58,656 nucleotides of DNA from Rothia nasimurium (lineage in GTDB: Bacteria; Actinomycetota; Actinomycetes; Actinomycetales; Micrococcaceae), in the NCBI RefSeq assembly GCF_004569295.1, contig NZ_SPQC01000013.1, positions 1-58,656 on the forward strand, written 5' to 3'. This document shows, in pieces, positions 2,903-36,015 of the stretch. Each line of letters begins with the position of its first letter. Position 1 is the first letter of the stretch. The notes below the pieces were generated by a model. That model ran no database searches, was not told where the DNA came from, and worked only from the letters and a program-made list of their open reading frames with translations. The position numbers were made by a program, and so were the translations under genes.

Positions 2903-4067
<1,165 letters not shown>

Positions 4068-5190: not shown

Positions 5191-5253
5191 GCGGGTCTTC
5201 CTCCAAAGTTGTGTCTGCTCTCGTAAGCGCGGGGTGCCGGTGTGTGGTCGGCG

Positions 5254-20178: not shown

Positions 20179-20195
20179 ACCTGTTTAAAGGCGGT

Positions 20196-21905
20196 TTAGA
20201 AGAGGCCGACCATAGTGCCGTCCTCGTCAAAGCCAATTCGTTCGGCAGCCGGGAACTTGGCCAGGCCCGGCATGGTACGCATGGTGCCGCAGATAGCGTA
20301 AACATAGCCGGCACCGGCAGCCAGGCGCACCTCGCGCACCGGCAGAGTCCAACCGGTCGGGGCACCCTTCAACGAGGCGTCAGCCGAGATGGACAGGTGA
20401 GTCTTGGCAATGACAACCGGCAGCTTGCCATAGCCTAGCTCCTCGTAGCGGGCCAGCTGCTTAGCCGCAGCCGGGGCGACCTCAATGCCGTCCGCGCCGT
20501 AGACCTTGGTGGCAACCTTCTCAATCTTGGTGGTCAGGCTATCTTCGTCCTCGTAGGTGTAGGTCAGCTCGCTCACGTCATCACAGGCTGCGGCGACGGC
20601 GTCCGCCAGCTCAGTCACGCCCTTACCGCCCTCGGCAACGCCGCGGTGAATCGCCACGCGAGCGCCAGCCTCCTCGGCAATGCGGCGAATCGTCTCGTGT
20701 TCTGACTCGAAGTCGGTGGGGAAGGCGTTGATAGCAACCACCGGCTGCACGCCGAAGGAGCGCACAATCTCGATGTGCTTGAGCAGGTTAGCGGCGCCTG
20801 CTTCGACGTTCTCGGTGTTCTCTGCCAGCAAGCCCTCGGGCAGGGGCTTGCCGGGCACAATCTTGTAGCGGCCCGAGTGGGACTTGAGGGAGCGGACGGT
20901 GACCACCAGGACGGCGGCGTCCGGCTTGAGGCCGGAGACGCGGCATTTGACGTTAAAGAAGCGCTCCGCACCCATATCTGCGCCGAAGCCGGCCTCGGTA
21001 ATCACATAGTCGGCGTGCTCAAGACCAACGTAGTCAGCGACAACCGAGGAGTTACCGGTGGCGATGTTGCCGAAGGGGCCCGCGTGAATCAGGGCGGGGG
21101 TCTTCTCGAGGGTCTGGAGCAGGTTGGGGTTGATAGCGTCAGCCAGGATGACGGCCATAGCGCCGTCGGCCTTGAGGTCGGCTGCGGTGACGGGGTCGCC
21201 GTCCACGTTGAGGCCGATTACGATCTTGGCCAGGCGCTCCTGCAGGTCAGCGAAGCTGGTGGAGAGCGAGAGAATCACCATGATTTCGCTGGCTGAGGTG
21301 ATGTCGAAGCCGGTTTCGCGGGGCACGCCGTCCATGCGCTCACCCAGGCCGATAACGATGTTGCGCAGGGCGCGGTCGTTCATGTCGATGACGCGGCGCC
21401 AGGTGATGGCGCGGGTGTCGATGCGCAGTTCGTTGCCGTGGTGCAGGTGGTTATCAATCATGGCAGCGAGCAGGTTGTGGGCTGCGGTGACGGCGTGGAA
21501 GTCACCGGTCAGGTGCAGGTTGAGCTTTTCCATGGGGACGATCTGGGAGTAGCCGCCACCTGCTGCGCCACCCTTGATGCCGAAGGTGGGGCCCATGGAG
21601 GGCTGACGCAGGGTCAGCATGGCCTTGCGGCCGGTTGCTGCCATACCCTGGGCCAGGGAGACCGAGGTTGCGGTCTTACCCTCGCCGAGAGGGGTGGGGG
21701 TAACGGCGGTGACCACGATGTACTTGGAGCCGCGGGCCAGGGCCTTTTCTGCGGTGGTGTCGTCGGTCAGCTGCACCTTGGCAACGTACTTGCCGTAGGG
21801 TTCCAGGCGATCCTCATTGATGCCTGATGCTGCGGCAATCTCGGTAATCGGCTGCAGGGTCGCTGCCTGGGCGATTTCAAGATCAGAGGGGAAGTGCTTG
21901 CTCAT
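20196..21905 (-). CDS. fhs: Formate-tetrahydrofolate ligase
   Basis: 569 residues (family about 550-560). ATP-dependent formation of 10-formyl-THF from formate and THF in the cytosol, feeding purine and formyl-Met synthesis. P-loop-like TPTPLGEGKTATSV at about residues 70-83, TLRQPSMGPTFGIKGGAAGGG, NLHLTGDFHAVTAAHN, FNVKCR and INAFPTD are all typical. Start MSKHFPSD at 21905 with AAGGAAG upstream. It is divergent from an oxalate/formate-type carrier; a formate uptake and assimilation pair is a reasonable inference. Confidence 0.96.
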   Translation of the reverse strand: MSKHFPSDLEIAQAATLQPITEIAAASGINEDRLEPYGKYVAKVQLTDDTTAEKALARGSKYIVVTAVTPTPLGEGKTATSVSLAQGMAATGRKAMLTLRQPSMGPTFGIKGGAAGGGYSQIVPMEKLNLHLTGDFHAVTAAHNLLAAMIDNHLHHGNELRIDTRAITWRRVIDMNDRALRNIVIGLGERMDGVPRETGFDITSASEIMVILSLSTSFADLQERLAKIVIGLNVDGDPVTAADLKADGAMAVILADAINPNLLQTLEKTPALIHAGPFGNIATGNSSVVADYVGLEHADYVITEAGFGADMGAERFFNVKCRVSGLKPDAAVLVVTVRSLKSHSGRYKIVPGKPLPEGLLAENTENVEAGAANLLKHIEIVRSFGVQPVVAINAFPTDFESEHETIRRIAEEAGARVAIHRGVAEGGKGVTELADAVAAACDDVSELTYTYEDEDSLTTKIEKVATKVYGADGIEVAPAAAKQLARYEELGYGKLPVVIAKTHLSISADASLKGAPTGWTLPVREVRLAAGAGYVYAICGTMRTMPGLAKFPAAERIGFDEDGTMVGLF

Positions 21906-22144
21906 AATGTGAACTTCCTTGGTTAACTAGCTTATCTGCCACCACCCAGTTTAGTGCCCTGAGTCATGTTTTGCAGAGCCAGCACACTCATACATCTCAA
22001 GGAATGCTCAAAATTTTAGAAGAGCTACCAGACTCGCCACCCCTAGGACAGATAACATACGCCAGCCGCCGGCATGGGGTAATGTTGAGCGCATCACTAC
22101 ACATTGAATTTCGCCAGCAGACACACATCTCAGAGGAAAGCTTC

Positions 22145-23653
22145 ATGTCAGTTCTTGATAGGTCAGCTATCGTAGCACCCATCACTTTTAACCGCTGGTT
22201 CATGGCGCCAGCGGCACTTGCCATCCATCTCTGCATCGGGCAAGTCTACGCCTGGTCAGTTTTTAAGACCCAGCTGGTCACCCACTTTGGATCAACTGAA
22301 ACCGCAGTGGGTTGGGTCTTCTCTCTCGCCATCGCCATGCTGGGTATCTCAGCGGCCATCGGTGGCACCTGGGTGAAGCGGGTTGGCCCTCGCAAGTCGA
22401 TGCTAACGGCGGGAACCTGCTGGGTTCTAGGCTTTCTCATCGCGTCTCTCGGCGTGACCACCAACCAGCTATGGCTAGTTTTCCTGGGTTACGGTGCACT
22501 CGGCGGCATTGGTCTGGGTCTGGGCTACATTTCCCCGGTATCCACCCTCATGAAGTGGTTCCCTGACCGCCCGGGCATGGCCACCGGGCTTGCCATCATG
22601 GGTTTTGGCGGCGGTGCGCTCATTGCTTCTCCCGTATCGGCCCAGCTCATGGAGCTCTTTTCAGGCTCAGCCGAAAAGACAGAACAGGCATCAGCGCTCG
22701 TCCCCTCATTCTTAGTTCTCGCTGCCTCCTACGCCCTTATTATTCTGCTGGGCGCTTTCGTCATCAGGGTCCCCCACCCCGACTGGAAGCCCGCCGGTTT
22801 CGACCCGGCCCAGCAGAAGCCCAATACCATGCGCACCAACAAGAACGTCACCGCAGCCCGGGCTATCCGCACTCCCCAGTTCTGGCTGCTCTGGACTGTA
22901 CTATTCACCAATGTCACCGCCGGTATCGGCCTGCTTGAATCAGCCTCCCCCATGATTCAGTCTTACTTCACCATCTCCGCTGCGGCGGCAGCCGGCTTCG
23001 TCGGTCTGCTGTCCCTGGGCAATATGGGTGGCCGCTTCGTCTGGTCATCGACCTCAGATATCATCGGCCGCAAGAACATCTACATCATGTACCTGGGCGT
23101 GGGGCTGGCCCTCTACATCATCTGGGCACTCTTCGGCAACGTCAGCCTGGTGCTCTTTATCGCTACCGCTTTCATCATCATTTCCTTCTACGGCGGTGGC
23201 TTTGCCACCATCCCGGCCTATCTGCGCGATATGTTTGGCACCCTACAGGTGGGGGCTATCCACGGCCACCTGCTGACCGCCTGGTCAGCTGCGGGTATTG
23301 CTGGGCCGCTCATCGTCAACCTGGTTCAGGACACCGTGCGTGGGGGCAACCCCGATGCCTCTGGTGCCGAGCTCTACCAGCCCTCCCTCTTCATCATGGT
23401 GGGCGTGCTGGCAGTTGGGTTCATCGCCAACCTGCTGGTCAAGCCGGTGAACGAGAAGCACCATGCCTCAGAGAAGGACATGGCAAAGCTGGCAGGCCAC
23501 GGGAAGCTGGGCACCGCTGACCAACAAATTAAGGTCAACGCCGGCGGCCCGCTGCATACCCTGGCAGCCTGGGCCCTGACCCTACTCGTCACAAGCGGCT
23601 TGGTCTATGGCCTAGCCCAGACCATAATTCGCTCGCTGGCACTGTTCAGCTAA
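22145..23653 (+). CDS. OFA-family MFS transporter (oxalate/formate antiporter-like) with extra C-terminal helix
   Basis: 502 residues with 12 hydrophobic segments plus one more. N-terminal FMAPAALAIHLCIGQVYAWSVF and GYGALGGIGLGLGYISP (before MKWFPDRPGMATG) are hallmark OFA sequences; the second half repeats the fold with GNMGGRFVWSSTSDIIGRK. After a hydrophilic stretch (about 420-470) a 13th helix (AWALTLLVTSGLVYGLAQTI) resembles the separate small subunit found beside some OFA carriers, so this looks like a fusion; that is inference. Start at 22145 behind GAGGAAAG. Substrate could be formate, oxalate or another small carboxylate. The divergent fhs favours formate. Confidence 0.85.
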   Translation: MSVLDRSAIVAPITFNRWFMAPAALAIHLCIGQVYAWSVFKTQLVTHFGSTETAVGWVFSLAIAMLGISAAIGGTWVKRVGPRKSMLTAGTCWVLGFLIASLGVTTNQLWLVFLGYGALGGIGLGLGYISPVSTLMKWFPDRPGMATGLAIMGFGGGALIASPVSAQLMELFSGSAEKTEQASALVPSFLVLAASYALIILLGAFVIRVPHPDWKPAGFDPAQQKPNTMRTNKNVTAARAIRTPQFWLLWTVLFTNVTAGIGLLESASPMIQSYFTISAAAAAGFVGLLSLGNMGGRFVWSSTSDIIGRKNIYIMYLGVGLALYIIWALFGNVSLVLFIATAFIIISFYGGGFATIPAYLRDMFGTLQVGAIHGHLLTAWSAAGIAGPLIVNLVQDTVRGGNPDASGAELYQPSLFIMVGVLAVGFIANLLVKPVNEKHHASEKDMAKLAGHGKLGTADQQIKVNAGGPLHTLAAWALTLLVTSGLVYGLAQTIIRSLALFS

Positions 23654-24055
23654 AAACCAGAAGCCCTGCCCTGGCAGCCCCCAGGTTGAGCACCAGGATG
23701 AGGGCACCCAGTACCAGATTAGGCCAGCCGCTTCCTACCCAGGCGGTGAGACCAGCTACGGCGATGATAGCGAGGTTGATGAGCACATCATTGCGAGCTG
23801 CCAAAAAGGCGGCTGCGGTGAGCGCCCCGGCACCGGTACGAAAACGGGCCAGAATCAGGGTACAGATGAGGTTGACCACCACGGCCCCGCCTGCGGTAAC
23901 GAAGAGGGTGAGCGCATTGGGGGCGCCAGGGTCAGGGAATTTAGCCACGATCTGCCAGACGGCAGCCAGGGCCGGGAGCAGGATAATAGGGCGGACGCCT
24001 TCCCCGCCCGCGCCTGCCAGGTCAGTAACCAGCCCAGGGCGAATGAGGCCCAGAC
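23646..24055 (-). pseudogene. Remnant of a cation diffusion facilitator-like transporter
   Basis: The 100-codon ORF from 23948 (MAKFPDPG) holds a C-terminal half ending in AAFLAARNDVLINLAIIAVAG...SGWPNLVLGALILVLN, the pattern of small CDF-type cation transporters. Translation continues sensibly upstream in the same frame (GEGVRPIILLPALAAVWQIV), and a further fragment (ASFALGWLLT) lies in another frame. The N-terminal metal-site half (normally with a FADSVDF/EDT segment) is absent; the next gene begins instead. Its 3' end overlaps the MFS gene stop by 8 bases. Probably dead. A short expressed membrane peptide cannot be excluded. Confidence 0.65.
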
Positions 24056-24076
24056 ATCTTAGACCTGTGAGGTTTC

Positions 24077-25828
24077 TTAGGCGCGGGCAAAGATTTCTGC
24101 CGGGGCACCCTCTACAACCAGCTCACCGTTTTCCAGGAGCACGGCCCGGTCAGCCAGTGAGACGATGCGGGCGTCGTGGGAGATGATGATGACGGCCCGG
24201 CCCTGCATCACCGCGGCCAGGGACTGGCGGGCGTCCGCCAGTTCAAGCTGGGTAGTTGACTCATCCAGAATCACCGCGTGGGGGTTGGCAGCCACGATGC
24301 GGGCTAGGCCCAGCTGCTGAATCTGGTCGCGGGTGAGCTCTGTGCTACCGCCACCGACCCGACTCTCCAGCCCCTCGGGCAGGTCATCGACCCAGGTGGC
24401 GCCCACCGACCGCAGGGCGGTGAGCATCTGCTCGGCACTAGCGTCGGGTGCTGCCACGGTCATGTTCTCGGCCAGGGAGCCGACAAAGACGTGAGCCTCC
24501 TGGGTGCAAATGAGCAGGGCGGGGCGTCCGCTGGCATCAGGCTGGGTGGGGTACAGCCCGTTGCCCACTAGCTGACTACCGACCTGCACGGTGCCGCTGT
24601 CTGCGGTGAGCGACCCGGCAATCAGGCGGGCCAGGGTGGTCTTGCCCGAGCCGGAGCGTCCTACCAGGGCTAGGCTCTCCCCCGCTGCCAGCTGCAGGTC
24701 TACCCCTTTAATCACGGGGGCGTCCGGGTCGTACCCGTAGGTCACGCTCTGCAGGCTGATGACCGGGGCGGACGCGCCCTGCTCGGGCAGGTGCGCCGGG
24801 GCAGGCACCTGCCCGGCGGCACGGCGGACCTGCTGCTGGTTCGACAGGTCGATGACGCCAAAGACGCGCCCCATGGTGACGGTCATTTCGCGCAGGCGGT
24901 CGAGCCAGAAGGTGAAGATATCCGAGTTGACGCGCATGGTGAAGAGCATGATAGAGGCGGTTGCAACGTCGCCCCAGGTCGCCCAGCCCTGCTCCACGCA
25001 GTAAGCGCCCCAGACCATGGAGAGCACCAGGGGCAGGAAGGAGTTGAAGGCGTCCACAGCCCAGAAGATGGAGCGCACCACGACCATGCGGTCGCTGACC
25101 TCAAAGGTTTTCCAGATGCGCTCATCCTGCACCCGAGCACGGGCCTCACTGATCCCCAGCTCTTCAACGGTGCCAGCACCGCGGATGTTTTCGGTTGCCA
25201 CCACAGTCAGGTCACTGACGGCTTCGGTCTTTTCCCGGGTGAGCTTGGCGATCCGGGGTAGGAAAATCGAGAGCGCGATGGTCATCACGATAAACATGGG
25301 CACAGTCACCAGGCCGACGGCCGGGTTGACGGTGAAGATGGTGGCCGCGGTAATCACCATGTAGATGCTGATATGGGCGAATTCCGGCAGGCCGGTGGCC
25401 AGTACCTGGCGCACGCTGTCGACGTCATCAGTCAGGCGGGCTACCAGGTCGCCGGAGCCGGCGTCCTCAACGGTTTGGGCGTCCAGCTGCAGGGAGGCCC
25501 CGACCAGGTCAATGCCCAGGTCGCGGTTGAGGCGCACACCCATTTTCTGGCCCTGGAAGGTCCAAGCACGGGCCAGCAGGGCACCGGCGACCACGGCGAG
25601 GCCAATAACCGCTAGCTCTGCCCAGGGGTAGCCGGTCAGCTGCCCAGTGGTAGCCCGGTCAATCAGTTGCCCCACCATAATGGGGGTCACCAGGGTAGCC
25701 ACGGAGCTAGCCACAAACAGAACCACCAGCCAGACCAGCTGCCAGGGGGTTTTGAGAATCGAGAGGGCCAGCAGCCGCCAGGTAGTCTTACCGTCGGTAA
25801 TGGGGAGGAGGTTAGCCACGGGCTTCAC
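24077..25828 (-). CDS. ABC exporter half with intact Walker motifs but lost signature (catalytic-site partner)
   Basis: 583 residues. Six transmembrane segments (about 30-310) and one nucleotide-binding domain. NBD motifs: Walker A GRSGSGKT (390-397), Q-loop Gln443 (CTQEAHVF), Walker B VILDES (519-524, with Asp522 and Glu523) and H-loop His551 (IISHD). The ABC signature is replaced: STELTRDQ (496-503) stands where LSGGQ should be. Its start lies inside the upstream ABC gene (17-bp overlap). The partner has the opposite set of losses, so the two would make a heterodimer with a single competent ATP site. Substrate unknown; multidrug or peptide export is plausible. Confidence 0.88.
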   Translation of the reverse strand: MKPVANLLPITDGKTTWRLLALSILKTPWQLVWLVVLFVASSVATLVTPIMVGQLIDRATTGQLTGYPWAELAVIGLAVVAGALLARAWTFQGQKMGVRLNRDLGIDLVGASLQLDAQTVEDAGSGDLVARLTDDVDSVRQVLATGLPEFAHISIYMVITAATIFTVNPAVGLVTVPMFIVMTIALSIFLPRIAKLTREKTEAVSDLTVVATENIRGAGTVEELGISEARARVQDERIWKTFEVSDRMVVVRSIFWAVDAFNSFLPLVLSMVWGAYCVEQGWATWGDVATASIMLFTMRVNSDIFTFWLDRLREMTVTMGRVFGVIDLSNQQQVRRAAGQVPAPAHLPEQGASAPVISLQSVTYGYDPDAPVIKGVDLQLAAGESLALVGRSGSGKTTLARLIAGSLTADSGTVQVGSQLVGNGLYPTQPDASGRPALLICTQEAHVFVGSLAENMTVAAPDASAEQMLTALRSVGATWVDDLPEGLESRVGGGSTELTRDQIQQLGLARIVAANPHAVILDESTTQLELADARQSLAAVMQGRAVIIISHDARIVSLADRAVLLENGELVVEGAPAEIFARA

Positions 25829-27467
25829 CTGCTTTCAGTCGTCGCTCAACCTCCATGGTGGTTGAGACCAGGTAAATCTGGCGGATGTGTTCGAGGGGGC
25901 CGGGTCTTCCCGTATGGGTTTCGAGCTGGTTCAAGATAAACTTCTGGCTGGGTTCGTCCACCGAGTTCAGCGGTTCGGTGAGCACCAGCACGGACGCAGG
26001 CTGGGCCAGGGCCCGGGCCAGGGCCAGGCGCTGCCGCTGGCCCCCAGAGAGGTTGGTACCCTCTGAGGCCAGGGTGCTAGACAGGTACTTTTCGGGGTCG
26101 CGGCCACCAAGTCGGAAGGCGATTTCTTCGGAGTCGGTGAGCTGGAGCAGCTCAATCATGCGCTCCCGGCTCAACCCTTCAGTGCCCATCTGCAGGTGAT
26201 CAGCCAGGGAGCCGGCAAAAATCATGGGGTTGGGCTCCGAGAGAAGCACGCGCTCGCCCCCGGTGAGGATGCCCGCCGCCTGCTCCCTGCCCGGGGCAGG
26301 TTGAGCTTGGCATAGGGCTTCGGTCAGAGTTTCGGCGTAGTCCTGGGCTGGCACCCCGGCTTCGCGCGGGTTGATGTAGTGCACCGGGGCGCTGGCCCGG
26401 GGAACCTCAACCAGCGCCTGCCCTGCTGCGGCGCTGGTCGCCGGGGCCGGAGCGTCCTTACTCTCTACCTGAGAGTTACCCTCAACCTCAGCTGCAAGTC
26501 TATCTACGCGTTTGAGGGCAATGCGGGCGTTACGCCAGGCAAAGAGCAGCATCTCCACCGACCAGATAGGGCCGGTCAGGGTGTTGATCAGACCAACCAC
26601 CGTGACCAGCTGGCCAGCGGGAACCTCAGTAATCCAGGTACCCTCGGGGGCGGCCCCGCGCAGGGCGAGCGCAATGACCACCCAGGTCACAGCTCCCACC
26701 AGCAGGTTGCGCACCGCATACGACCAGGTCTGCACGCTCTCTAGGCGAATCTGGGAGGTGTAGACGTCCTGGGCTGTTGCCCCGTAGCGGCCCATCATGC
26801 GGCGCTGGGCACCCAGTCCTAGAATGGTGCGAATCGAGGAGGCTACGTCAGAGGCGCGGGAGGTAGACACCCCCACCTTGTCGCGGAAGACGTCCGCGTG
26901 CTTCTCGAGCAGCTTGGAAATCCAGGTGAGGGTCAGCATGGTCAGAATCAAGCCACCCAAACTCACCACAGCAATCACAGGGCTAATGCGCCAGAGCTGC
27001 CAGGTGCCCAGGGCGGTCACGCCCACCGCGGAAAAGGCCAGAATCATGGGCTGCCACATCTGGGCCATGGAGCGGGCGTCCTTGTTCAAGATCGCGATGA
27101 GGGCGCCGGTGTCGCGGTTGGGGCTGCCGGACATCAGGCTGGCAATGTAGAGCCGCCAGTCCCGCTCGATGCGGGCCACCACCCTAAAGGTGATACCCCA
27201 ACCCACGAACTCAACGACCGACAGGTAGACCACCAAGCCCACCAGCAACCAGACCAACCGCCAGGCGCCTGCCTCATCGCCTGAGGTGTACAGGTCAATA
27301 ATCGTGCCCACTAGAACCGGCAGGAACACCAGGGCGAGGGAGGTCAGAATGTCGAGGGGGAAGGGCAGAAAGAAGAGCGGGCGCCAGCGGAAGCCCGGCG
27401 GGGCGATACGGAACTTAACTTTTTCTTTGGGCGACTTGGTTTTTGTCTCGTCAGTCATCTCAGCCAT
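25812..27467 (-). CDS. ABC exporter half with degenerate NBD (signature only)
   Basis: 551 residues. Six transmembrane segments (about 38-310) followed by an atypical NBD. No Walker A is present: the region that should carry it (about 365-400) is short and unrelated. The Q-loop Gln is Glu411 (LSEPNPMIF), Walker B reads LVLTEP with Thr for Asp, and the H-loop His is Thr (LVSTT). The signature LSGGQRQ (473-479) is perfect. So this subunit can supply only the signature to its partner's ATP site. The NBD is a true reduction, not a frameshift, since the frame is intact. Preceded by a leader ORF and terminator. Confidence 0.88.
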   Translation of the reverse strand: MAEMTDETKTKSPKEKVKFRIAPPGFRWRPLFFLPFPLDILTSLALVFLPVLVGTIIDLYTSGDEAGAWRLVWLLVGLVVYLSVVEFVGWGITFRVVARIERDWRLYIASLMSGSPNRDTGALIAILNKDARSMAQMWQPMILAFSAVGVTALGTWQLWRISPVIAVVSLGGLILTMLTLTWISKLLEKHADVFRDKVGVSTSRASDVASSIRTILGLGAQRRMMGRYGATAQDVYTSQIRLESVQTWSYAVRNLLVGAVTWVVIALALRGAAPEGTWITEVPAGQLVTVVGLINTLTGPIWSVEMLLFAWRNARIALKRVDRLAAEVEGNSQVESKDAPAPATSAAAGQALVEVPRASAPVHYINPREAGVPAQDYAETLTEALCQAQPAPGREQAAGILTGGERVLLSEPNPMIFAGSLADHLQMGTEGLSRERMIELLQLTDSEEIAFRLGGRDPEKYLSSTLASEGTNLSGGQRQRLALARALAQPASVLVLTEPLNSVDEPSQKFILNQLETHTGRPGPLEHIRQIYLVSTTMEVERRLKAGEARG

Positions 27468-27534
27468 CAGGCTACTCTTTCAGCGTGTGCGTGCGGGTGG
27501 GCAGGTCGTATGTGAGGAAAAACCCGCAGGGCAT

Positions 27535-27569
27535 AAAAATACCTACCGGGTTCGCTTGCCCCGATAGGT
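27535..27569 (-). terminator. Intrinsic terminator between leader ORF and ABC genes (putative attenuator)
   Basis: On the minus strand ACCTATCGGG (27569-27560) pairs with CCCGGTAGGT (27550-27541), 10 bp with one G-U, followed by ATTTTTATG. It begins 27 bases after the leader ORF stop and ends 67 bases before the ABC start. CCCGTGGGTAG inside the leader ORF could pair instead with the 5' arm, leaving a 3-base bulge, and so act as antiterminator. That pairing is inference. Confidence 0.75.
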
Positions 27570-27596
27570 GTGTCTACGTCAGGTTATCGTACTCGT

Positions 27597-27683
27597 CTAA
27601 CCAGCAGTCGGGCTAGAAGCGAGCGCACCATTGATGTGTCTACCCACGGGGAGGCTGTTGAAGGGAATAGGTCGATTATTCAT
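27597..27683 (-). CDS. 28-residue leader peptide upstream of the ABC exporter
   Basis: ATG at 27683, stop TAG at 27599-27597. The reading starts MNNRPIPFNSLPVG and ends ASSPTAG; it is Pro/Asn/Ser-rich with no membrane segment. It is too short for most gene callers. Support comes from an exemplary ribosome-binding site (GAAAGGAGG, 8 bases before ATG), a promoter 51 bases further upstream, and an intrinsic terminator 27 bases after the stop and before the exporter genes. This is the arrangement of ribosome-mediated attenuation, as known for bmrB-bmrCD of Bacillus subtilis, which also controls a heterodimeric ABC drug exporter. It could alternatively encode a bioactive peptide. Confidence 0.7.
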   Translation of the reverse strand: MNNRPIPFNSLPVGRHINGALASSPTAG

Positions 27684-27733
27684 TTCGTGGGCCTCCTTTC
27701 GTGAGCTAGATATGCGGTTAAGTTCTGCCCTTT

Positions 27734-27763
27734 ACCTTAGAACACTCTGGGCAGGTTTGACAA
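27734..27763 (-). promoter_or_regulatory. Promoter of the leader-ABC transcript
   Basis: Minus strand TTGTCA (27763-27758), 18 bases, TAAGGT (27739-27734). A transcript would start near 27727, about 43 bases before the leader ATG. The whole 27468-27811 stretch is thus accounted for by leader ORF, terminator and this promoter. The promoter of the divergent helicase gene is not clear. Confidence 0.55.
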
Positions 27764-27811
27764 GCGTCACACCCGTCTTTGTCTTGACCGGTCTATTAAA
27801 CTAGAAGAACC

Positions 27812-30415
27812 ATGAAGATTCTTCCCTTTCTCTCCCCCTCTTTAGCCGATAACAGCAAGCCCTATTTCCGTGGCATTTTTGCCTCTAACCCGCTCACGGG
27901 CGATGAAGCCTACGAGGCCTTTCTGGCTTGGATTGAGGCTCGCGGTATGCAGCTGTACCCGGCCCAGGATGAAGCTGTGCTTGATTTAGCGGCGGGCAAC
28001 AACGTCATTTTGGCGACCCCTACCGGGTCGGGCAAGTCTACCGTGGCGGTTGCAGCTCATTTTATGGGTCTGGCGACTGGCCAGCGCTCCTATTACACCG
28101 CCCCTATTAAGGCCCTGGTGTCTGAGAAGTTCTTTGATCTCTGCGAGATTTTTGGGGCTGAGAACGTGGGTATGGTGACCGGCGATTCTTCTATTAACGC
28201 CGATGCCCCCATCGTCTGCTGCACCGCCGAGATTCTTGCCAATATTGTGCTGCGTGAGGGTGAAGGGGCTGATCTGACCCAGGTAGTCATGGATGAGTTC
28301 CATTTCTACTCTGACCCCCAGCGCGGTTGGGCTTGGCAGGCTCCCCTGCTTGACCTACCACAGGCCCAGTTCCTGCTCATGAGCGCAACCCTGGGCGATA
28401 CTAGCCGTTTTGAGCGCGAACTGACGGAGCTCACCGGACGGCAGACCTCCCTGGTCACCAGCGAGAACCGCCCCATTCCGCTCAACTACACCTACTCCCG
28501 TGAGCCCCTGGTTGAGAAGGTAGACGAGCTAGTGAGCACCCACCAGGCCCCGGTCTACATTGTGCACTTCTCCCAGCTCCAGGCCATCGATACAGCCGCT
28601 TCGCTCATGAGCCTGGCTATTGCCTCTAAGGAAGACAAGGAGCGCATCAACGAGCTGACCGCCGGCTTCCGCTACTCGGCGGGCTTCGGCAAGCAGCTGC
28701 AGAAGTACATCAAGAACGGTATCGGCATTCACCATGCCGGCATGTTGCCCAAGTACCGCCGTCTGGTGGAGCAGCTAGCCCAGGCGGGCCTGCTCAAGGT
28801 CATTTGCGGTACCGATACGCTGGGTGTGGGTATTAACGTCCCCATCCGCACGGTGCTCGTAACTGCCCTTTCCAAGTTTGACGGGCAGCGCACCCGCCGC
28901 CTGAAGTCCCGTGAGTTCCACCAGATTGCAGGACGCGCGGGCCGAGCTGGCTTTGATACGGCCGGTTACGTGGTGGTTCAGGCCCCCGAACACGAAATTG
29001 AGAACGACCGGCTTGAGGCCAAGGCCCGGGAGAAGTTCAATGGGGATGAGAAGAAGATGGCCCAGTCGCTGCGGGGTAAAAAGAAGAAACCCCCGCAGGG
29101 TTTTGTGGCCTGGAGCGATAAGACCTTCGAGCATATTATTGCCGCAGAGCCCGAGCCGCTGACCTCGTCCTTCCAGATGACCCACTCCATGATGCTCAAT
29201 ATGTTGCAGCGTGAGGCTGACCCCTTTGAGACCGTCATGCTCTTCCTCACCGCCAACCACGAGCCACCGGTTAAGCAGCGTGCCCTCAAACGCAAGGCGA
29301 TTGGTATTTACCGGGAGCTGCTCAACGGGGGCGTGGTGGAGCGCCTGCCGGAGCCCGACGAGTTTGGCCGCACCGTGCGTCTGACTGTCTCGTTGCAGGA
29401 GAACTTCGCCCTGAACCAGCCGCTCTCCCCCTTCGCGATGGCTTCGCTGTCTCTACTCGATAAGGAGTCGGAGTCCTACGCCCTCGATGCGGTCTCGGTG
29501 ATTGAGTCCACCCTGGAAAAGCCCCGCCAGGTGTTGATTGGCCAGGAGAAGAAGGCTAAGAGTGAGGCCCTAGCCGAGATGAAGGCTGAGGGGCTGGACT
29601 ACAACGAGCGCATGGCTGAGCTCGATAAAATCACCTACCCGCAGCCCCTGGCTGACCTGCTAGAACAGGCCTTTGAGACCTACTCGGCGGGCGCTCCCTT
29701 TATGAAGGAGTTTGAGGTAGAGCCCAAGAGCGTGGTGCGCGATATGTATGAGCGGGCCATGGGCTTTGGCGACTACATCCAGTTCTACGGGCTGGAGCGC
29801 TCCGAGGGTATTCTGCTGCGCTACCTGTCGGACGCTTACAAGGCCCTGCGCCAAACTGTGCCCCTATCTGCCCTGACCGATGAGCTCACCGACGTGATCG
29901 AGTGGCTGAGCGAGGTTATCCGCCAGACCGACTCATCTCTGGTGGATGAGTGGGAGCGCCTGGCCGCCGGTGAAGAAGGTATCCCAGTTCAGGACTCACT
30001 CGAAGAGCTCGTTGCCGAATCTGCTCCCAAGGTGACGAGCAACGTCCGCGCCTTTAAGGTGATGGTGCGTAACGCGATGTTCCGTCGGGTGGAGCTCTTT
30101 GCGGACGAGCGCGACCGCCTGCTGGGCGAGCTGGACGGTGAGCGCTCGGGTTGGGACGCCGACCGCTGGGCTGAGGCGATGGATGACTACTTTGAGGAGT
30201 ACGAGGATATCTATACGGACGCCGAGGCTCGCTCACCGCGCCTGATTGAGATTGACGACGACACGGCTGAGCACCCCGGGGTGTGGAAGGTGCGTCAGAT
30301 CTTTGCCGACCCCGACGACAACCATGATTTCGGGATTGTCGCCAGGGTCGACCTGGACGCCTCAGACGAGGAAGGCGCGCCCATGGTGCTGATTGAGAGC
30401 GTGGGGGCTTTCTAG
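27812..30415 (+). CDS. Ski2-like DEAD/DEAH-box helicase with C-terminal DUF3516
   Basis: 867 residues. Helicase core: Walker A ATPTGSGKST (68-77), motif Ia APIKALVSEK, motif II DEFH (161-164), motif III MSATLGD, and motif VI HQIAGRAGRAGFD. A lysine-rich insert (RGKKKKPP) follows and then a long helical C-terminal region of the DUF3516 type with an acidic tail. Actinobacterial members are uncharacterised RNA/DNA helicases related to Mtr4/Ski2 proteins; a role in RNA processing is inference. Start at 27812 with AGAAGAACC before it. Its TAG shares bases with the stop of the converging M3 peptidase remnant. Confidence 0.9.
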   Translation: MKILPFLSPSLADNSKPYFRGIFASNPLTGDEAYEAFLAWIEARGMQLYPAQDEAVLDLAAGNNVILATPTGSGKSTVAVAAHFMGLATGQRSYYTAPIKALVSEKFFDLCEIFGAENVGMVTGDSSINADAPIVCCTAEILANIVLREGEGADLTQVVMDEFHFYSDPQRGWAWQAPLLDLPQAQFLLMSATLGDTSRFERELTELTGRQTSLVTSENRPIPLNYTYSREPLVEKVDELVSTHQAPVYIVHFSQLQAIDTAASLMSLAIASKEDKERINELTAGFRYSAGFGKQLQKYIKNGIGIHHAGMLPKYRRLVEQLAQAGLLKVICGTDTLGVGINVPIRTVLVTALSKFDGQRTRRLKSREFHQIAGRAGRAGFDTAGYVVVQAPEHEIENDRLEAKAREKFNGDEKKMAQSLRGKKKKPPQGFVAWSDKTFEHIIAAEPEPLTSSFQMTHSMMLNMLQREADPFETVMLFLTANHEPPVKQRALKRKAIGIYRELLNGGVVERLPEPDEFGRTVRLTVSLQENFALNQPLSPFAMASLSLLDKESESYALDAVSVIESTLEKPRQVLIGQEKKAKSEALAEMKAEGLDYNERMAELDKITYPQPLADLLEQAFETYSAGAPFMKEFEVEPKSVVRDMYERAMGFGDYIQFYGLERSEGILLRYLSDAYKALRQTVPLSALTDELTDVIEWLSEVIRQTDSSLVDEWERLAAGEEGIPVQDSLEELVAESAPKVTSNVRAFKVMVRNAMFRRVELFADERDRLLGELDGERSGWDADRWAEAMDDYFEEYEDIYTDAEARSPRLIEIDDDTAEHPGVWKVRQIFADPDDNHDFGIVARVDLDASDEEGAPMVLIESVGAF

Positions 30416-31312
30416 GCCAGCCCGCGCCGCTTCAACAACGGGGCAGTGTCGGCCGTACGTCCGGTCATGGATTTGAAGGCCTCGGGGATGGGCTGGGTGC
30501 CGCCGACCGCCAGAATATAGCGGCGGAAGACGTCCCCGTCCTCAAGCACCCGGTTGAGCTCAAAATAGGACTGCAGGGCTTCAGGATCAACAGCGTATTC
30601 CCGGGCTTTGACCTTCTCTGAGTAATAGGTCATGTCCCAAGGCTCAATCTTGTCTATACCGTCCTCTGCCGCCAGGGCCGCAATCGCATGCGCCTCCCGG
30701 TCAGCGTTCCGCATAGACGGTTCAATGGTCTGTACAAACAGCTTCTCCACAGCCTCAGGAGTACCTGCCGTGCGATCAGCAACCGCCAGTGCCCTGGCCG
30801 TAGGAGGTTTGGGCCTGGGCAATAGCAAGGTTCAAGCTAGCGAGTTCCTCACGGTCAGCGTCGCTAAGGGCAACCCCGGCCAGGGTGAAGCTCTGGTGGA
30901 GTTTCTCGGTCAGGCGCACCTGTTCGTCCGTCAGCTCTGCCTCTTGACGGCCCCGGTAGACGGCATCAAGCTTGGCGAAGATAGCGGGATTAAGGTAGAG
31001 GTCGTTCTCAAGCTGGGTAAGTTTTTCGGTGATGCCCCCTTCGAGGGCTAGCAATTCGGGGGTGCCGTCCGCCGATACCAGGTTGTAGAAGACCTTGGTG
31101 GTTCGTTCGAGGGTATCGCTGGGGCGTTCCAGCGGGGCAACCACATTGTCGAAGGTGGGCTCATCGGTGAGCTCTGCGATTGCGGTATAGGTTGAGCGGG
31201 CTTCAGCCAGACCAATCTCTAGTACAGGCAGGTAGTGTTCTGCGCGGATTGCAGCAAAATCGGGCAAGTGGTAGGGCAGGGAAGATTCTGTGAGCAGGGG
31301 ATTCTGTGTCAT
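30412..31312 (-). pseudogene. dcp: M3-family peptidyl-dipeptidase (Dcp), internally deleted
   Basis: The N-terminal piece (from MTQNPLLTESSLPYHLPDF, 31312) matches Dcp/oligopeptidase A to about residue 177 and then shifts frame at AQTSYGQ. A second piece resumes with ALAVADRTAGTPEAVEKLF...YSEKVKAREYAVD and jumps directly to the family C-terminus (FKSMTGRTADTAPLLKRRGL). Two internal deletions remove roughly half of a ~680-residue enzyme, including the zinc site HEXXH. So it cannot be an active dipeptidase. The preserved true C-terminus shows deletion rather than truncation at one end. Confidence 0.9.
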
Positions 31313-31487
31313 GCAGATAGGTTACTGCATTTGCACCCTGAGTCGGTAACCTCAGTCACATTCTAGGGGTGCTCTCACCTAAAGCGGTCACATTAGAACT
31401 TCTTACGCACCACCTCAGAGCCCGCGCAGGGAAGCTAGGGTAGCCTATCGGTAGAAGAAAGACCTTACTTGCGCGCAAAGGAGACCC

Positions 31488-32900
31488 ATGCCTACCCACC
31501 CCAGCCTGCCCCAGCCGACCCACCGCGTCGGCGTCACCCACACCATTGACTCCCTCAAACTGGTAGACCACTGGTTCACCGTGCCCCTAACCCACGGGCT
31601 CATCTACGGCAAGGGTGAAGCGGCAGCCCTGGAATCCCGCTTTGCTGACCAGACCATCACCGTCTTCGCCCGCGAAGTCATCGACACCTCTGATGCCCTC
31701 ACCACCCCCGTCGATGAGCGCCCCTACATGGTCTATCTGCAGGGCGGCCCCGGCGGCAAGAGCCCCCGCCCTATCTCTGAAGGCGGCTGGGTACAGGAAC
31801 TCGCCAAGACCCACCGCCTGATTCTGCTAGACCAGCGCGGCACCGGCAATTCCACCCCGCTCTCTGCCCGCGTCATCACCGCCCAGGGCACCCCCGAGGT
31901 ACAGGCTGAGTTCTGTGAGCTCTTCCGCGCCGACTCCATCATTGCCGACGCCGAGGTCGTCCGTGAATTCCTGCTGGCAGACCGCACAGACAAGCGCTGG
32001 TCGACCATGGGCCAGAGCTTCGGCGGCTTCTTGACCCTCTCCTACCTCTCCTTTGCGCCTGAGTCCCTCAAGGACTCCCGCATGACTGCCGGGCTTGCCC
32101 CCATCCGCTCCCACGTGGATGACATCTACCGCTCCACCCTCGACCGCATGAAGGAGCGCACCGAGGAATACTACGGCTGGTACCCCGAAGATAAGGACCT
32201 GGCCGTCCGCATCTGCGAGCACCTGGCCAAGAACGAGGAATACCTGCCCACCGGCGAGCGCCTGACCCCGCACCGCTTCCAGATGCTAGGCAATATTCTG
32301 GGTGGTAACGGCCGGGCTAGGGGCCTGCACTATGTACTGGAGTCGGCTTTTGCTGAGTCTGATAAGTGGCTCTCTGACCAGTTCCTGACGGAGGTTAGCG
32401 CCCAGGTCAGCTTCCAGGCTGGCCCCCTCTACGGCCTGCTGCACGAGACGATTTATGCGGACGGCCCCGCTCAGGGGCTGGGGGGCACTTCGCCGTCCGC
32501 TTCACCGACGAACTGGTCTGCTGCCCGCATGTACGCTGAGCGCCCGGATTTTGCCGAGGATGCCTCTCCCCTGCTGCTGACCGGTGAGCATATCTTCCCC
32601 TGGTATTACGAGGAGGACCCGGCTCTGCGTCCGCTGGCTGAGGTTGCCCAACTACTGGCTGAGAAGAAGGACTGGGGCCGTCTGTACGACCACGACCAGC
32701 TGGCCCGCAACGAGGTGCCCCTGGTCGCAGCGGCCTACGTGCCCGATGTGTACGTGGATTATGCCCACTCGATAAAGACGGCCGAGTTCGTGGGTAACAC
32801 CCGTGTGTGGACCTCCAAGACCCACCACCATGACGGTCTAGGCGCTGACGGCCCCCTAATTCTGGGCCATCTGAAGAATCTGCTAGCTGATATGCGCTAG
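31488..32900 (+). CDS. Prolyl aminopeptidase-like alpha/beta hydrolase (S33)
   Basis: 470 residues. Alpha/beta hydrolase with oxyanion-hole segment LQGGPGGKSPRP, LLDQRGTGNS (the S33 signature after strand 4), nucleophile elbow GQSFGG and a late His in KTHHHDG. It lacks a signal peptide, so cytosolic. The family releases N-terminal proline from peptides and fits an organism taking up peptides. Strong ribosome-binding site (AAAGGAG) before the ATG. Divergent from the decayed dcp; their 175-base spacer contains GTCACATT twice, 32 bases apart, of unknown meaning. Confidence 0.9.
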   Translation: MPTHPSLPQPTHRVGVTHTIDSLKLVDHWFTVPLTHGLIYGKGEAAALESRFADQTITVFAREVIDTSDALTTPVDERPYMVYLQGGPGGKSPRPISEGGWVQELAKTHRLILLDQRGTGNSTPLSARVITAQGTPEVQAEFCELFRADSIIADAEVVREFLLADRTDKRWSTMGQSFGGFLTLSYLSFAPESLKDSRMTAGLAPIRSHVDDIYRSTLDRMKERTEEYYGWYPEDKDLAVRICEHLAKNEEYLPTGERLTPHRFQMLGNILGGNGRARGLHYVLESAFAESDKWLSDQFLTEVSAQVSFQAGPLYGLLHETIYADGPAQGLGGTSPSASPTNWSAARMYAERPDFAEDASPLLLTGEHIFPWYYEEDPALRPLAEVAQLLAEKKDWGRLYDHDQLARNEVPLVAAAYVPDVYVDYAHSIKTAEFVGNTRVWTSKTHHHDGLGADGPLILGHLKNLLADMR

Positions 32901-32920
32901 GGTTTTTACCTGAAAAATAG

Positions 32921-32966
32921 AGCATCGGCGTGCTGACCCCAATAATAGGGTCAGCACGCCGATGCT
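32921..32966. terminator. Terminator between S33 peptidase and small membrane gene
   Basis: Perfect 19-bp stem AGCATCGGCGTGCTGACCC (32921-32939) with its complement at 32948-32966 and an 8-base loop. On the minus strand it is followed by CTATTTTTC, so it best terminates the minus-strand gene at 33007. It may also stop plus-strand transcription. Confidence 0.85.
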
Positions 32967-33006
32967 TCAGTTTAAGCCTGCGGCGCTTGTCAAGGTTGCA
33001 AGCGTT

Positions 33007-33225
33007 CTATGCCTGAGAATCCTCTTTTACTCGCTGGTGGGCCTCGTTAGCGGCGTTAGCAGCCGTAGTAGCGGTAGCATCTGACTGCATAGTTGCTCCG
33101 GTTCGAATTCCAATAACCCTGTTACGGCTTAAAGTCCCAGCTGCACCCATGCGGGCAAGAGTTAGCAAGAGCCCACCTGCCAGAAGGAGAGAAAAAACTA
33201 GGATCATATACTCAACTGCAAACAT
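33007..33225 (-). CDS. Small SdpI-like membrane protein
   Basis: 72 residues: one N-terminal transmembrane helix (about 5-24) and then LSRNRVIGIRTGATMQSD, the conserved loop of SdpI/YhfL-like proteins (N-x-x-x-GIRT-x-x-T), followed by an alanine-rich charged tail. Typical SdpI domains have more helices, so this is a minimal or shortened member. In Bacillus SdpI gives immunity to the SdpC toxin, but most family members have no known function. I would not assign immunity here. Own promoter region (33226-33350 is A/T-rich) and own terminator, so monocistronic. Confidence 0.65.
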   Translation of the reverse strand: MFAVEYMILVFSLLLAGGLLLTLARMGAAGTLSRNRVIGIRTGATMQSDATATTAANAANEAHQRVKEDSQA

Positions 33226-33350
33226 TAGGAGTTCCCTTCAGTTTCTCAATAGATGTTAAGGTCAATTCTACTCAAACACACACACGGGGGGGCAAGAGTA
33301 ACTGTGAACATTGCAGGTAGAAGACCTTTCTCTTACCAGCTCATAGAAAG

Positions 33351-33388
33351 ACCGCTGGCCCCTTCCCTCTAGGGATGGGGCCAGCGGT
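33351..33388 (-). terminator. Terminator downstream of terC
   Basis: Stem ACCGCTGGCCCC..TCCC / GGGA.GGGGCCAGCGGT with a four-base loop and one internal mismatch. The minus-strand sequence after it is CTTTCT. A second inverted repeat (GGCGTCCGC at 33404-33412 and GCGGACGCC at 33429-33437) lies between it and the terC stop. Confidence 0.65.
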
Positions 33389-33446
33389 CGTGAAGCCGGG
33401 GTGGGCGTCCGCACCCCTGGTTTTTGGGGCGGACGCCTACTGCGGG

Positions 33447-34643
33447 TTAGGCGCTGCGCTCGGCGTGAGCGGTACGGGCACGGCGGACCAGGTCCTGGTA
33501 CTCGTTCTCAGACTCAATCAGCTCGTCGCGGTACTTCTGCGGAATCTCGCGGGACTTAGCCACCTCAGCATCAAGCTTGCTCTGAATCTCAGCGCGCTCA
33601 GCCTCAGAAGCGTCGGCGGGCAGGTTCAGGTACTTCTCAGACAAGGTCTGAACACGCTGAATGGTTGCCAGAGCACGGCCCTTCGGGCTGTAAAGAGAAG
33701 CCAGAACAGTGATGATCAGAACGCCTACAATAACAGCAAGTGAGAGCTCAATTCCAACTTCAACTACGTGAACCGGGTGACCATCATTCACAAAGGGCAA
33801 AGTGTTGGAGTGCAGAGCGTGCAGCAGCAGCTTCACACCGATGAAGGCCAGGATGATGGACAGACCCCATGAGAGGTAGATCAGGCGGTCCAGCAGGCCG
33901 TCAATCAGGAAGTAGAGCTGGCGCAGACCCATCAGTGAGAAAGCGGTCGCGGTGAAGACGATGTAGGCCTCCTGGGTCAGACCGAAAATCGCGGGGATGG
34001 AGTCCAGAGCGAAGAGGATGTCGGTACCACCGATAGCCACCATGACCAGCAGCATGGGGGTCATGACCTTCTTGCCGTTTTCTACGGTGAAGAGCTTGTC
34101 GCCGTCGTAGTAGTCAACGGTGTTAAACATCTTCTTGGCCAGGCGAACGACGAAGTTGTTGGCTTCGTCCTCTTCTTCCTTGTCGGTGACTTCACCCTTG
34201 ATGAGGTTACCGGCGGTGTACATCAGAATCAGGCCGAAGAGGTAGAAGACCCAGCTCCAGCGCTCAATAGCGGCAGCACCAATCAGAATGAAGATGGTGC
34301 GAGCAATCATCGCGAAGATAATACCGAAGAGCAGCACCTTTTGCTGGTCTTTGCGCGGCACCTTGAAAGAGGCCATGATAATCAGGAAGACAAAGAGGTT
34401 ATCGACGCTCAGAGCCTTCTCGGTGATGTAGCCGCCATAGTATTCTGCGGCGAACTGGGTGCCGTCCCAGAACAGGATGACCAGGCCAAAGAGCAGGGCG
34501 ATACCCACGTAGACGGCCGACCAAATCGCGGCCTCTTTGATGGTGGGTTCGTGCGCTTTTCGCACGTGGAAGAAGAAGTCGTAAGCAAGCAGTGCCAGGA
34601 TGAACGCAATCGTTACACCCCACTGCAACCCAGTGATATGCAT
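33447..34643 (-). CDS. terC: TerC/Alx-family membrane protein (manganese-related)
   Basis: 398 residues with about nine membrane helices. Family signatures: the acidic intramembrane segments YITEKALSVDNLFVFL and GTDILFALDSIPAIFGLT, and FLIDGLLDRLIYLSWGLSIIL. A charged cytoplasmic C-terminal tail (about 325-398) is long and helical. TerC/Alx/MeeF proteins are linked to Mn2+ export and metalation of exported enzymes. The yybP-ykoY-type Mn2+ riboswitch directly upstream supports a manganese role here. Start at 34643 with AAAGG before it; the longer frame to 34682 runs into the riboswitch. Confidence 0.92.
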   Translation of the reverse strand: MHITGLQWGVTIAFILALLAYDFFFHVRKAHEPTIKEAAIWSAVYVGIALLFGLVILFWDGTQFAAEYYGGYITEKALSVDNLFVFLIIMASFKVPRKDQQKVLLFGIIFAMIARTIFILIGAAAIERWSWVFYLFGLILMYTAGNLIKGEVTDKEEEDEANNFVVRLAKKMFNTVDYYDGDKLFTVENGKKVMTPMLLVMVAIGGTDILFALDSIPAIFGLTQEAYIVFTATAFSLMGLRQLYFLIDGLLDRLIYLSWGLSIILAFIGVKLLLHALHSNTLPFVNDGHPVHVVEVGIELSLAVIVGVLIITVLASLYSPKGRALATIQRVQTLSEKYLNLPADASEAERAEIQSKLDAEVAKSREIPQKYRDELIESENEYQDLVRRARTAHAERSA

Positions 34644-34679
34644 TGGGAGCCTTTCTTGTGGTTGGGGTTTGCCAAAATC

Positions 34680-34781
34680 CACAAGTCTCTCCCACCACCG
34701 CTCAGGGTGGTTTCCTGCCCCGGTTGGGCGCCTTCGATCAACGTGCTGACGATGCAGGAATTAGTGGGATACTCCCTTGCT
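34680..34781 (-). promoter_or_regulatory. yybP-ykoY (Mn2+) riboswitch in the terC leader
   Basis: On the minus strand the leader has GCAAGGGAGTA at its 5' side, CATCGTCAGCACG in the middle, and GGGAGAGACTTG at the 3' side. CAAG and CTTG close the outer helix. These are the conserved cores of the yybP-ykoY class, which senses Mn2+ and is classically upstream of TerC/Alx genes. About 36 bases remain to the terC ATG, so control is probably at translation; I see no terminator. Confidence 0.75.
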
Positions 34782-34806
34782 CGGTCTACAACTATAACCC
34801 ATCTTC

Positions 34807-36015
34807 TTACTTTTGAACAGACATACAGGCGTCCTTAAGACCGAGCACGATGGCACAGGCCAGGAGAAGGACGGCCGCGCCCGCCCAGGCTGCGACAAAG
34901 CTGGTCGCCTGCGCGGCGGCACCGATGGCGAGAGAGCCCAGGCCGGTGCCGATGTCGAAGTGGGAGTTCCAAGCGACGGACGCCCGCTGGGTGGTGTCCG
35001 CCCCACCGGCATCCGAGAGGGCGCGTACCATGGTCATCGACTGTAGGAAGCCGTAACCGAACCCGATCAGGCTTGCGCCAGCCAAGAGGAAAACAATAGA
35101 GGGCAGACTCGCCCCATTGACCCAGCCAACGAGGGCAGCGCCCAGGGCCGTGAGGGCCAGCACCGGAGTCATGAGAAGGCGGGTACCAAACCGGTCAGTG
35201 AGGGAGCCGCCGTAGAGACGGGTGGGAGTTGCCAAGGCGCAGAGTAGGAGCAGGGCCCCGGTCGCCAGGGTGGCAGTGGGAGCGATTTCAGTGGAGAAGG
35301 TCATGAAGGCACCGCCGACGCTGGTGACGAGTGTGAGGGTCAGCAGTGCGGGCCAGATGCGGGCGATGATGGTTGCGGTGGAGGTTACCGGGGTAGCGCT
35401 ACTTCCCTGCTCACCGGCCCTTTGTTCTTCCATGAAGTGGTCAACCAGTCGACCTAGCTGCAGGGCGAAGGGAGCTGCAATTGCAGCGATTGCACCGGCT
35501 GAGATCACCGAACGGTACCCGAAAGTATCGAGAGCCCAGGGGGCGACGGGTGTAAAGAACATCTGGGCACCTGCAGCTGCCAGCCCGTAGAGCCCGACGG
35601 CCCGCCCACGGTATTCGACGGGAATGAGGTAGGACATAGCCGATGAGCAACAGACGGTGACAATGCCGAAGCCGATACCGCGCAAACCCGAGGTAACAAG
35701 GACGTTGAGCAAATCGGGGCTAAGAGCCTGAATGAGGGAGGGCAGCCCCATAAAGAGGGTGCCCGCCGGCAGCACAAAAGCCCAGGAGAAGCGGCGAGTG
35801 AGGGCAGGGACGCTGAACTGGGTGGCTACGGTGACAGCCATGAGTACCGCGTTGGTGGCGCCAGCCCCCAGGGAACCTGCCTCACCTGCGAGCGCCCAGG
35901 CGGGGGATGCTGGAAGCAGGATAGATAGACTGCAAATGGTCAGCCCGAAGGTAAGCAGAATCTGGGGCATACCCGGCATTCGGGCAACGCTGGGACGCGC
36001 GGTTTTCTGGCTCAT
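34807..36015 (-). CDS. MFS transporter of unknown substrate
   Basis: 402 residues and 12 predicted membrane segments. It starts in a hydrophobic LLTFGLTICSLSILLPASP region; the loop 2-3 motif is weak (ALTRRFSW), and RGRAVGLYGLAAAGAQ at helix 5 and YGGSLTDRFGTRLL in the second half fit the drug/cyanate type MFS. Nothing identifies the substrate. The stop lies 25 bases before the terC riboswitch, so some read-through into terC is possible. Divergence from related sequences cannot be judged by eye. Confidence 0.82.
   Translation of the reverse strand: MSQKTARPSVARMPGMPQILLTFGLTICSLSILLPASPAWALAGEAGSLGAGATNAVLMAVTVATQFSVPALTRRFSWAFVLPAGTLFMGLPSLIQALSPDLLNVLVTSGLRGIGFGIVTVCCSSAMSYLIPVEYRGRAVGLYGLAAAGAQMFFTPVAPWALDTFGYRSVISAGAIAAIAAPFALQLGRLVDHFMEEQRAGEQGSSATPVTSTATIIARIWPALLTLTLVTSVGGAFMTFSTEIAPTATLATGALLLLCALATPTRLYGGSLTDRFGTRLLMTPVLALTALGAALVGWVNGASLPSIVFLLAGASLIGFGYGFLQSMTMVRALSDAGGADTTQRASVAWNSHFDIGTGLGSLAIGAAAQATSFVAAWAGAAVLLLACAIVLGLKDACMSVQK

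Follow-up and report, generated by a model that had tools for sequence, protein, structure and literature searches.

The regulatory logic proposed here for a leader of Rothia nasimurium appears to resemble that of the upstream open reading frames (uORFs) of vmlR in Bacillus subtilis and are5sc in Streptomyces, with bmrCD as the precedent for an exporter. In vmlR, the uORF MIN lies within an anti-antiterminator, the arrest of initiating ribosomes by lincosamides or pleuromutilins frees the antiterminator, a hairpin masking the Shine-Dalgarno (SD) sequence is also employed, and the uORF sequence differs between species, with MDN, MDK, and MRK being functional; it differs from the Rothia locus in that the uORF has only three codons, that the SD is single-stranded before the hairpin, and that vmlR is an ABC-F protein of the Firmicutes rather than an exporter (PMC9226507). 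For are5sc, whose uORF is MLV, toeprinting with drugs of the lincosamide, pleuromutilin, and streptogramin A classes showed a stall at the start; are5sc and tiaA share with the Rothia leader the actinobacterial host and uORF ribosome sites that overlap the switch hairpin, but they are ABC-F genes with the uORFs MLV and MVGDDDISG, and the tiaA transcription reporter was constitutive (PMC12421871). The portion of the bmrB-bmrCD report consulted describes, in B. subtilis, a two-gene ABC multidrug exporter behind a translated leader with a predicted terminator, antiterminator, and anti-antiterminator, the differences being a 53-codon leader that encloses the terminator, an undefined stall site, and the other phylum (PMC4191407). 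The whiB7/wblC leaders, as far as summarized in a review, combine an actinobacterial uORF, competing terminator and antiterminator, and an antibiotic response, but their target is a transcription factor, and the likeness is one of description (PMC11550727); lmrC (PMC8546547) and hflXr (PMC6310831) are further relatives in logic. In a body of literature largely excluding subscription journals, no report on uORF or leader attenuation in Rothia or on attenuated exporters of Micrococcaceae and their kin was found among the papers listed.

The locus lies on the minus strand of a stretch of 58,656 nucleotides of R. nasimurium DNA, designated the window. As a first-pass annotation of the sequence had stated, the leader is followed by two ABC genes in its own orientation (27467-25812 and 25828-24077): ORF translation and profile search identify ABC_A (25812 to 27467) as a half exporter of 551 amino acids, and ABC_B (24077 to 25828), a half exporter of 583 amino acids, overlaps it by 17 nt. 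A gene for a DUF3516 helicase is located divergently on the plus strand and starts at 27812. ABC_A is only a distant relative of the TetAB subunit A, since it scored 83.6 bits against the respective NCBIfam model, which has a cut-off of 1025 bits. In its nucleotide-binding domain, the Pfam ABC_tran match is confined to profile positions 97-137, the C-terminal part; no Walker A motif was seen in ABC_A, its Walker B motif reads VLTEP, and the LSGGQ signature is intact; ABC_B has a Walker A motif, GRSGSGKTT, and a degenerate signature, LTRDQ. Judged by these motifs, the pair seems to form one complete composite ATP site.

The leader ORF (27597 to 27683) starts with an ATG at 27683-27681, comprises 28 codons for the peptide MNNRPIPFNSLPVGRHINGALASSPTAG, and ends with a TAG at 27599-27597; within its SD lies AAAGGAGG, as long a match as the SD test can score, and the 28-codon ORF with perfect SD of the earlier annotation is confirmed. 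The same holds for the terminator hairpin with U-tract, in which ACCTATCGGG (27569-27560) pairs with CCCGGTAGGT (27550-27541) in a stem of 10 bp including one G-U, closed by a 9-nt loop and followed by the 3' tail ATTTTTA; with -17.1 kcal/mol, it was matched in stability by 0 of 300 dinucleotide shuffles. A consensus scanner reported no terminator between 27300 and 28000, because it takes loops of 3-8 nt only. The promoter fared less well: a pair of hexamers is present (27734 to 27763, minus strand), with a putative -35 region TTGTCA (27763-27758) and a -10 region TAAGGT (27739-27734) separated by an 18-nt spacer, but it is weak and the least certain element of the locus, since TAAGGT matches TATAAT at only three of six positions and a consensus promoter scan of 27300-28000 yielded nothing above threshold. 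The TTGTCA hexamer recurs in three further loci (L030, L031, L032). The leader region as a whole (27468-27740) folds with a z-score of -2.53, equalled by 2 of 200 shuffles, and a scan of 20000-35000 against Rfam gave no family at gathering scores.

Two observations stand beside this layout. On the minus strand at 27518-27552, CGGGTTTTT, located 3' of the terminator, can pair across a 20-nt loop with AACCCG of the terminator 3' arm, possibly as a second, alternative terminator; the motif CGGGTT 3' of the terminator recurs in G016, G020, and G030. Elsewhere in the window, at 30412-31312 (minus strand), two ORFs that overlap each other correspond to different parts of an M3-type oligopeptidase (TOP_N, and Peptidase_M3 positions 52-140 of 457), so that this gene is truncated and probably decayed.

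ABC_A is present in 25 of 35 genomes of the genus (E <= 1e-10). Of these 25 exporter loci, 13 carry a leader of the terminator type, two carry a different leader, here termed translational type, and ten have none that was recognised, a judgment made by eye and from a list of uORFs with an SD score of at least 5. Thus 13 of the 35 genomes, falling into three diverged lineages, have the terminator-type layout in front of the exporter, and an intrinsic terminator was found in all ten of the 13 sequences examined for it, with 0-9 of 300 shuffles being equally stable. A covariance model of the leader retrieved the same number, 13 of 35 genus genomes with one copy each (E <= 4.5e-10); these are the nine training rows and four near-identical copies, so that the gain is one of specificity, with zero new members, and two weak matches in the genus (E 0.19 and 0.78) were left uncounted. 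Under stricter filters, the model gave four matches in 197 genomes of the family, none of them outside the genus, and the exporter itself was confined in the same way, all matches among 149 family genomes (six; E <= 1e-12) and among 297 order genomes (four; E <= 1e-40) belonging to the genus Rothia. A scan of named genomes, in which ABC_A proteins of R. nasimurium strains were 91-95% identical, listed 20 exporter loci, namely 17 of Rothia, one of a Micrococcaceae metagenome-assembled genome, and one each of Leucobacter OH1287 and Canibacter oris, the last two with no leader visible by eye; plasmid records contained three weak matches to the exporter, all from Streptomyces. In a tree of ABC_A, the three terminator-type lineages fall into one supported group, interspersed with leaderless ones, and the two proteins behind translational-type leaders are both long-branched and not sisters. 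Some of the leaderless loci contain other short ORFs (e.g., MVLLS in L035), and in L039, L040, L042, and L043 an LND ORF overlaps the exporter start. In Rothia aerolata (L037), an uncertain exporter start (GTG or TTG) lies close 3' of a TATAAA-like hexamer, which suggests that the exporter mRNA of this species may be leaderless. In Rothia terrae (L055), where no leader was recognised upstream of ABC_A, a partial extra copy of the C-terminal part of the exporter was noticed by eye directly 5' of ABC_A (2925-5350).

The leader RNA contains four segments that can pair in competing ways. Segment 1 (27691 to 27710) consists of the 5'UTR sequence TCTAGCTCACG and the leader SD GAAAGGAGGC and forms the 5' arm of an anti-antiterminator helix, P1, in which CUAGCUCACG and GGAGGC of the SD face GCCUCC-CCGUGGGUAGA of segment 2 (GCCTCCCCGTGGGTAGA, 27639 to 27655, positions +29 to +45 of the leader). 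Segment 2 has an alternative partner in segment 3 (27560 to 27569), with which it forms the antiterminator, and segment 3 is at the same time the 5' arm of the terminator, whose 3' arm CCCGGTAGGT constitutes segment 4 together with the U-tract (27534 to 27550). All these segments lie on the minus strand. The pairing of the leader with the terminator 5' arm had been proposed in the first-pass annotation and was found at codons 11-14 (-17.6 kcal/mol), while the contribution of the 5'UTR and SD as anti-antiterminator is the element that this annotation lacked. The P1 duplex of the R. nasimurium leader amounts to -26.2 kcal/mol. Among 1000 shuffled leaders, two formed a P1 duplex as good as that of R. 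nasimurium, 0 as good as that of G031, 223 as good as that of Rothia P100 (G007), and 429 as good as that of Rothia endophytica (G008), the corresponding numbers for the antiterminator duplex being 23, 4, 410, and 591. Both pairings are thus singly convincing in two lineages and unconvincing in the third, that of P100 and R. endophytica, where they do not differ significantly from shuffles. In these comparisons, rows omitted from the 13 terminator-type loci were close copies of rows kept: ten rows were used for the duplex tests, nine for the footprint folds and the scan of codons 1-15, eight for the footprint-width test, five for the switch shuffles, nine and 11 for alignments A3 and A4, and nine for alignment A5 and the covariance model. 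In all nine sequences of the footprint folds, CUCC of segment 2 begins between +28 and +31. In the alignment, the P1 columns are paired in 82.9% of the cells, compared to 43-56% in slid versions, a value reached by one of 500 column shuffles. The covariation of P1 is thin: its score was reached by 19 of 500 shuffles, only three pairs show changes on both sides (reached by 177 of 500), and the seven further pair types were reached by 474 of 500. The MAFFT alignment offsets the arms of R. endophytica and P100 by one base and thereby blurs these counts, and fold tests were run alongside.

The consequences of ribosome position were computed by equilibrium folding alone, using the nascent RNA up to the terminator 3' arm and moving the ribosome footprint codon by codon, and by folding of this kind the antiterminator and the anti-antiterminator are mutually exclusive. 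In the nine sequences, 5.2-8.9 antiterminator pairs are expected with codons 1-3 in the P-site and 0-1.4 without a ribosome; the expectation drops to 0-0.1 with the ribosome at codon 8 and is 0 from codon 10 to codon 14. When codons 1 to 15 were scanned one by one with each of two footprints, codons 1 and 2 gave 5.4-8.9 pairs in all nine sequences (6.9-8.8 in R. nasimurium). Codon 3 fails with a 15-nt upstream footprint in R. nasimurium, G018, and G017, codon 4 is variable among the nine, codon 5 allows at most 1.0 pairs, codon 7 at most 4.0 (in G016; 0 in R. nasimurium), and codons 8-15 at most 0.5 in every sequence. Codon 6 represents a second window with 0.1-8.8 pairs, i.e., 4.3 or 0.2 in R. 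nasimurium depending on the footprint, 8.7-8.8 in G016, and 7.6-7.7 in Rothia nasisuis 69RC1 (G020). With upstream footprints of 12, 15, 18, and 20 nt, codon 1 works in eight of eight sequences, and with the 12-nt footprint it is the only codon that works in R. nasimurium; with a footprint of -15 to +20, the minimum-energy nascent fold of R. nasimurium and G017 retains the outer half of P1. A combined switch score, which counts codons 1-3 as on and both the ribosome-free state and codon 10 as off, was equalled, among 200 shuffles of the region 5' of the terminator, by one for R. nasimurium, by 0 for G016, G030, and G007, and by two for G031. In the computations, the device therefore opens at the first codons and is closed further on, apart from several sequences in which codon 6 opens it in part. 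Since the antiterminator needs a ribosome, forms when this is at codons 1-2, and is almost absent once codon 8 has been reached, early arrest is the predicted signal, and the folding models indicate that the device most likely reads ribosomes halted during initiation or shortly thereafter, not a mid-leader stall at the proline-containing segment.

We therefore consider it probable that the leader is a ribosome-mediated transcription attenuator which reads an arrest at the start of its ORF. Without a ribosome, the 5'UTR and SD would form P1 with positions +29 to +45 of the leader, leaving the terminator free and the exporter off; ribosomes that proceed along the leader would cover segment 2, and the terminator would again form. 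A ribosome halted early in the leader, at codons 1-2 according to every model and at codon 3 according to most, would cover the SD and block P1, and segment 2, just past the arrested ribosome, could then capture the terminator 5' arm, allowing the polymerase to read through into the half-exporter genes. By analogy, the signal would be translation inhibitors that arrest at the start, such as those of the lincosamide, pleuromutilin, and streptogramin A type, and we infer that these would also be the compounds handled by the exporter, just as we infer that the leader is translated and that termination and read-through occur. The first-pass annotation was right in the kind of regulation it proposed, and its comparison with bmrB-bmrCD is fair, since in three diverged Rothia lineages a leader ORF, a terminator, and a competing antiterminator stand before a heterodimeric ABC exporter; according to the folding, it was probably wrong in the place of the stall, which its second option put in the proline-rich segment.

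In that version, a sequence-specific stall of the nascent peptide in the mid-leader (codons 4-12) drives the attenuator, which we regard as improbable. The peptide is conserved among close kin, the 28-codon form being found with 93-100% identity in seven of the 35 genus genomes including that of the window; codons 1-14 are identical in seven of ten sequences of the R. nasimurium group, again including that of the window, and the other three lean towards synonymous changes. For codons 2-14, pN/pS was 0.15/0.28 on seven differences in the comparison with G016 (ABC_A, 0.052/0.30) and 0.10/0.21 on five differences with G030 (ABC_A, 0.038/0.38), and for codons 2-11 it was 0.06/0.41 on four differences with G020 (ABC_A, 0.036/0.31). 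The constraint on the peptide is thus lower than that on the exporter in two of the three pairs, the changes being so few that some constraint may exist, and the low divergence is also accounted for by the RNA pairing of P1. Between lineages, leader length (28, 20, 17, or 16 codons) and motif frame drift, while start codon and SD stay: 17-codon leaders are found in G016 and, starting with TTG, in Rothia S13M_Sa_13 (G030), P100 and R. endophytica have 20-codon leaders (MNTKCGTMNISPRVSPVRTG/S) with the CTCCCCGCGGGT motif in a different reading frame, and G031 has a leader of 16 codons (MNLTISNTRLHRYLPH). RPIPF.SLP was looked for in the leaders of R. endophytica, P100, and G031 and was absent from them, and a conserved stalling peptide as in leaders of the erm/cat type is not seen, as residues, length, and motif frame vary beyond close kin. 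A ribosome at codon 6 permits some antiterminator pairs, as given above, and a stall at precisely this codon is conceivable, but codons 4, 5, and 7-15 of the R. nasimurium leader yield only 0-0.1, so that the proline-rich stall is mostly unsupported. As far as the sequences tell, RNA pairing is conserved better than the peptide across the three lineages, and since the leader is poorly conserved as a protein, a peptide-specific mechanism does poorly, while arrest at the start needs no particular peptide.

The position of the computed window also fits a sensor of amino acid starvation, in which ribosomes would stall at codon 2 (and 3) when Asn-tRNA is low, as asparagine is encoded by codon 2 of all 15 leaders (13 of the terminator type and two of the translational type) and by codon 3 in the latter two as well as in the R. 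nasimurium group. This explanation is very unlikely, however, because A-rich second codons are common for reasons of initiation, because the leaders of R. endophytica, P100, and G031 contain a single asparagine before codon 7, and because an exporter is an odd target for it. Similarly slight is the chance that the RNA is a ribosome-independent switch responding to a ligand or protein, with the ORF being incidental. In favor of it, the helices persist in R. nasisuis, where ATA replaces ATG and a 1-nt deletion leaves the motif one C shorter, so that regulation has been lost there or translation is dispensable, and the absence of Rfam matches would allow for an undescribed class. On the other hand, the perfect SD doubles as a pairing arm, an ATG or TTG start with SD precedes the exporter in 12 of the 13 terminator-type loci (11 ATG, one TTG, and one ATA), and in two further loci an MNN start is accompanied by an RNA structure of another kind. 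Least probable of all is a plain, unregulated terminator that ends a constitutively made short RNA or the gene of a small protein, for which speak the sequence-based nature of the support for regulation and the ten of 25 exporter loci without recognised leader, but against which stand the competing helices in three lineages and a switch that outperforms shuffles in five of five sequences tested. Attenuation by arrest at the start has to accommodate the start loss in R. nasisuis, the duplexes at shuffle level in P100 and R. endophytica, the footprint dependence of codon 3, the codon 6 window, the thin covariation, and the ten leaderless loci.

The two translational-type leaders are MNNDLYSA-stop in Rothia amarae (L057) and MNN-stop in Rothia S11A_Sa_8 (L058). 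In both, the leader arm CTTTATTCC, which begins at +13 as counted from the A of the leader, forms a helix with the SD region of the presumed GTG start of the exporter, GGAATAAAG. The SD-masking helices comprise 9 and 11 Watson-Crick pairs, equalled in length by four and two of 5000 shuffles, respectively; their arms are identical, the hairpin loops are unlike in length and sequence, and the ABC_A proteins share 46% identity. A ribosome placed at codons 1-3 reduces the computed energy required to open the SD and start from about 12 to 3.0-5.1 kcal/mol, the release being partial in the model for R. amarae, where a stretch of the 5'UTR re-pairs with the SD afterwards. These models indicate that the two leaders probably act by translational attenuation through the same start-proximal arrest. 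Their RNAs cannot be aligned with those of the terminator type, and kinship is suggested by the common M-N start, the exporter, and the position. It is conceivable, although somewhat less likely than not, that within one genus and in front of the same exporter a sensor for start stalls, the Met-Asn leader, was kept while the output was swapped between a terminator (three lineages) and SD masking (two genomes), the sensor depending mainly on the position of the ribosome and the output being decided by how far away the next arm lies (about +29 or +13).

If the proposed mechanism is true, it would represent actinobacterial start-stall attenuation governing an ABC exporter of the drug type, a logic which the passages cited above describe for ABC-F proteins of Streptomyces and Bacillus and also, although with the stall site left undefined, for bmrCD. 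The leaders of Rothia would then form a natural series whose members may couple a single mode of sensing to transcription in some cases and to translation in others, and the spacing rule is directly testable. R. nasimurium has been reported as a multidrug-resistant opportunist of animals, and an inducible pump could therefore escape tests which lack the inducer.
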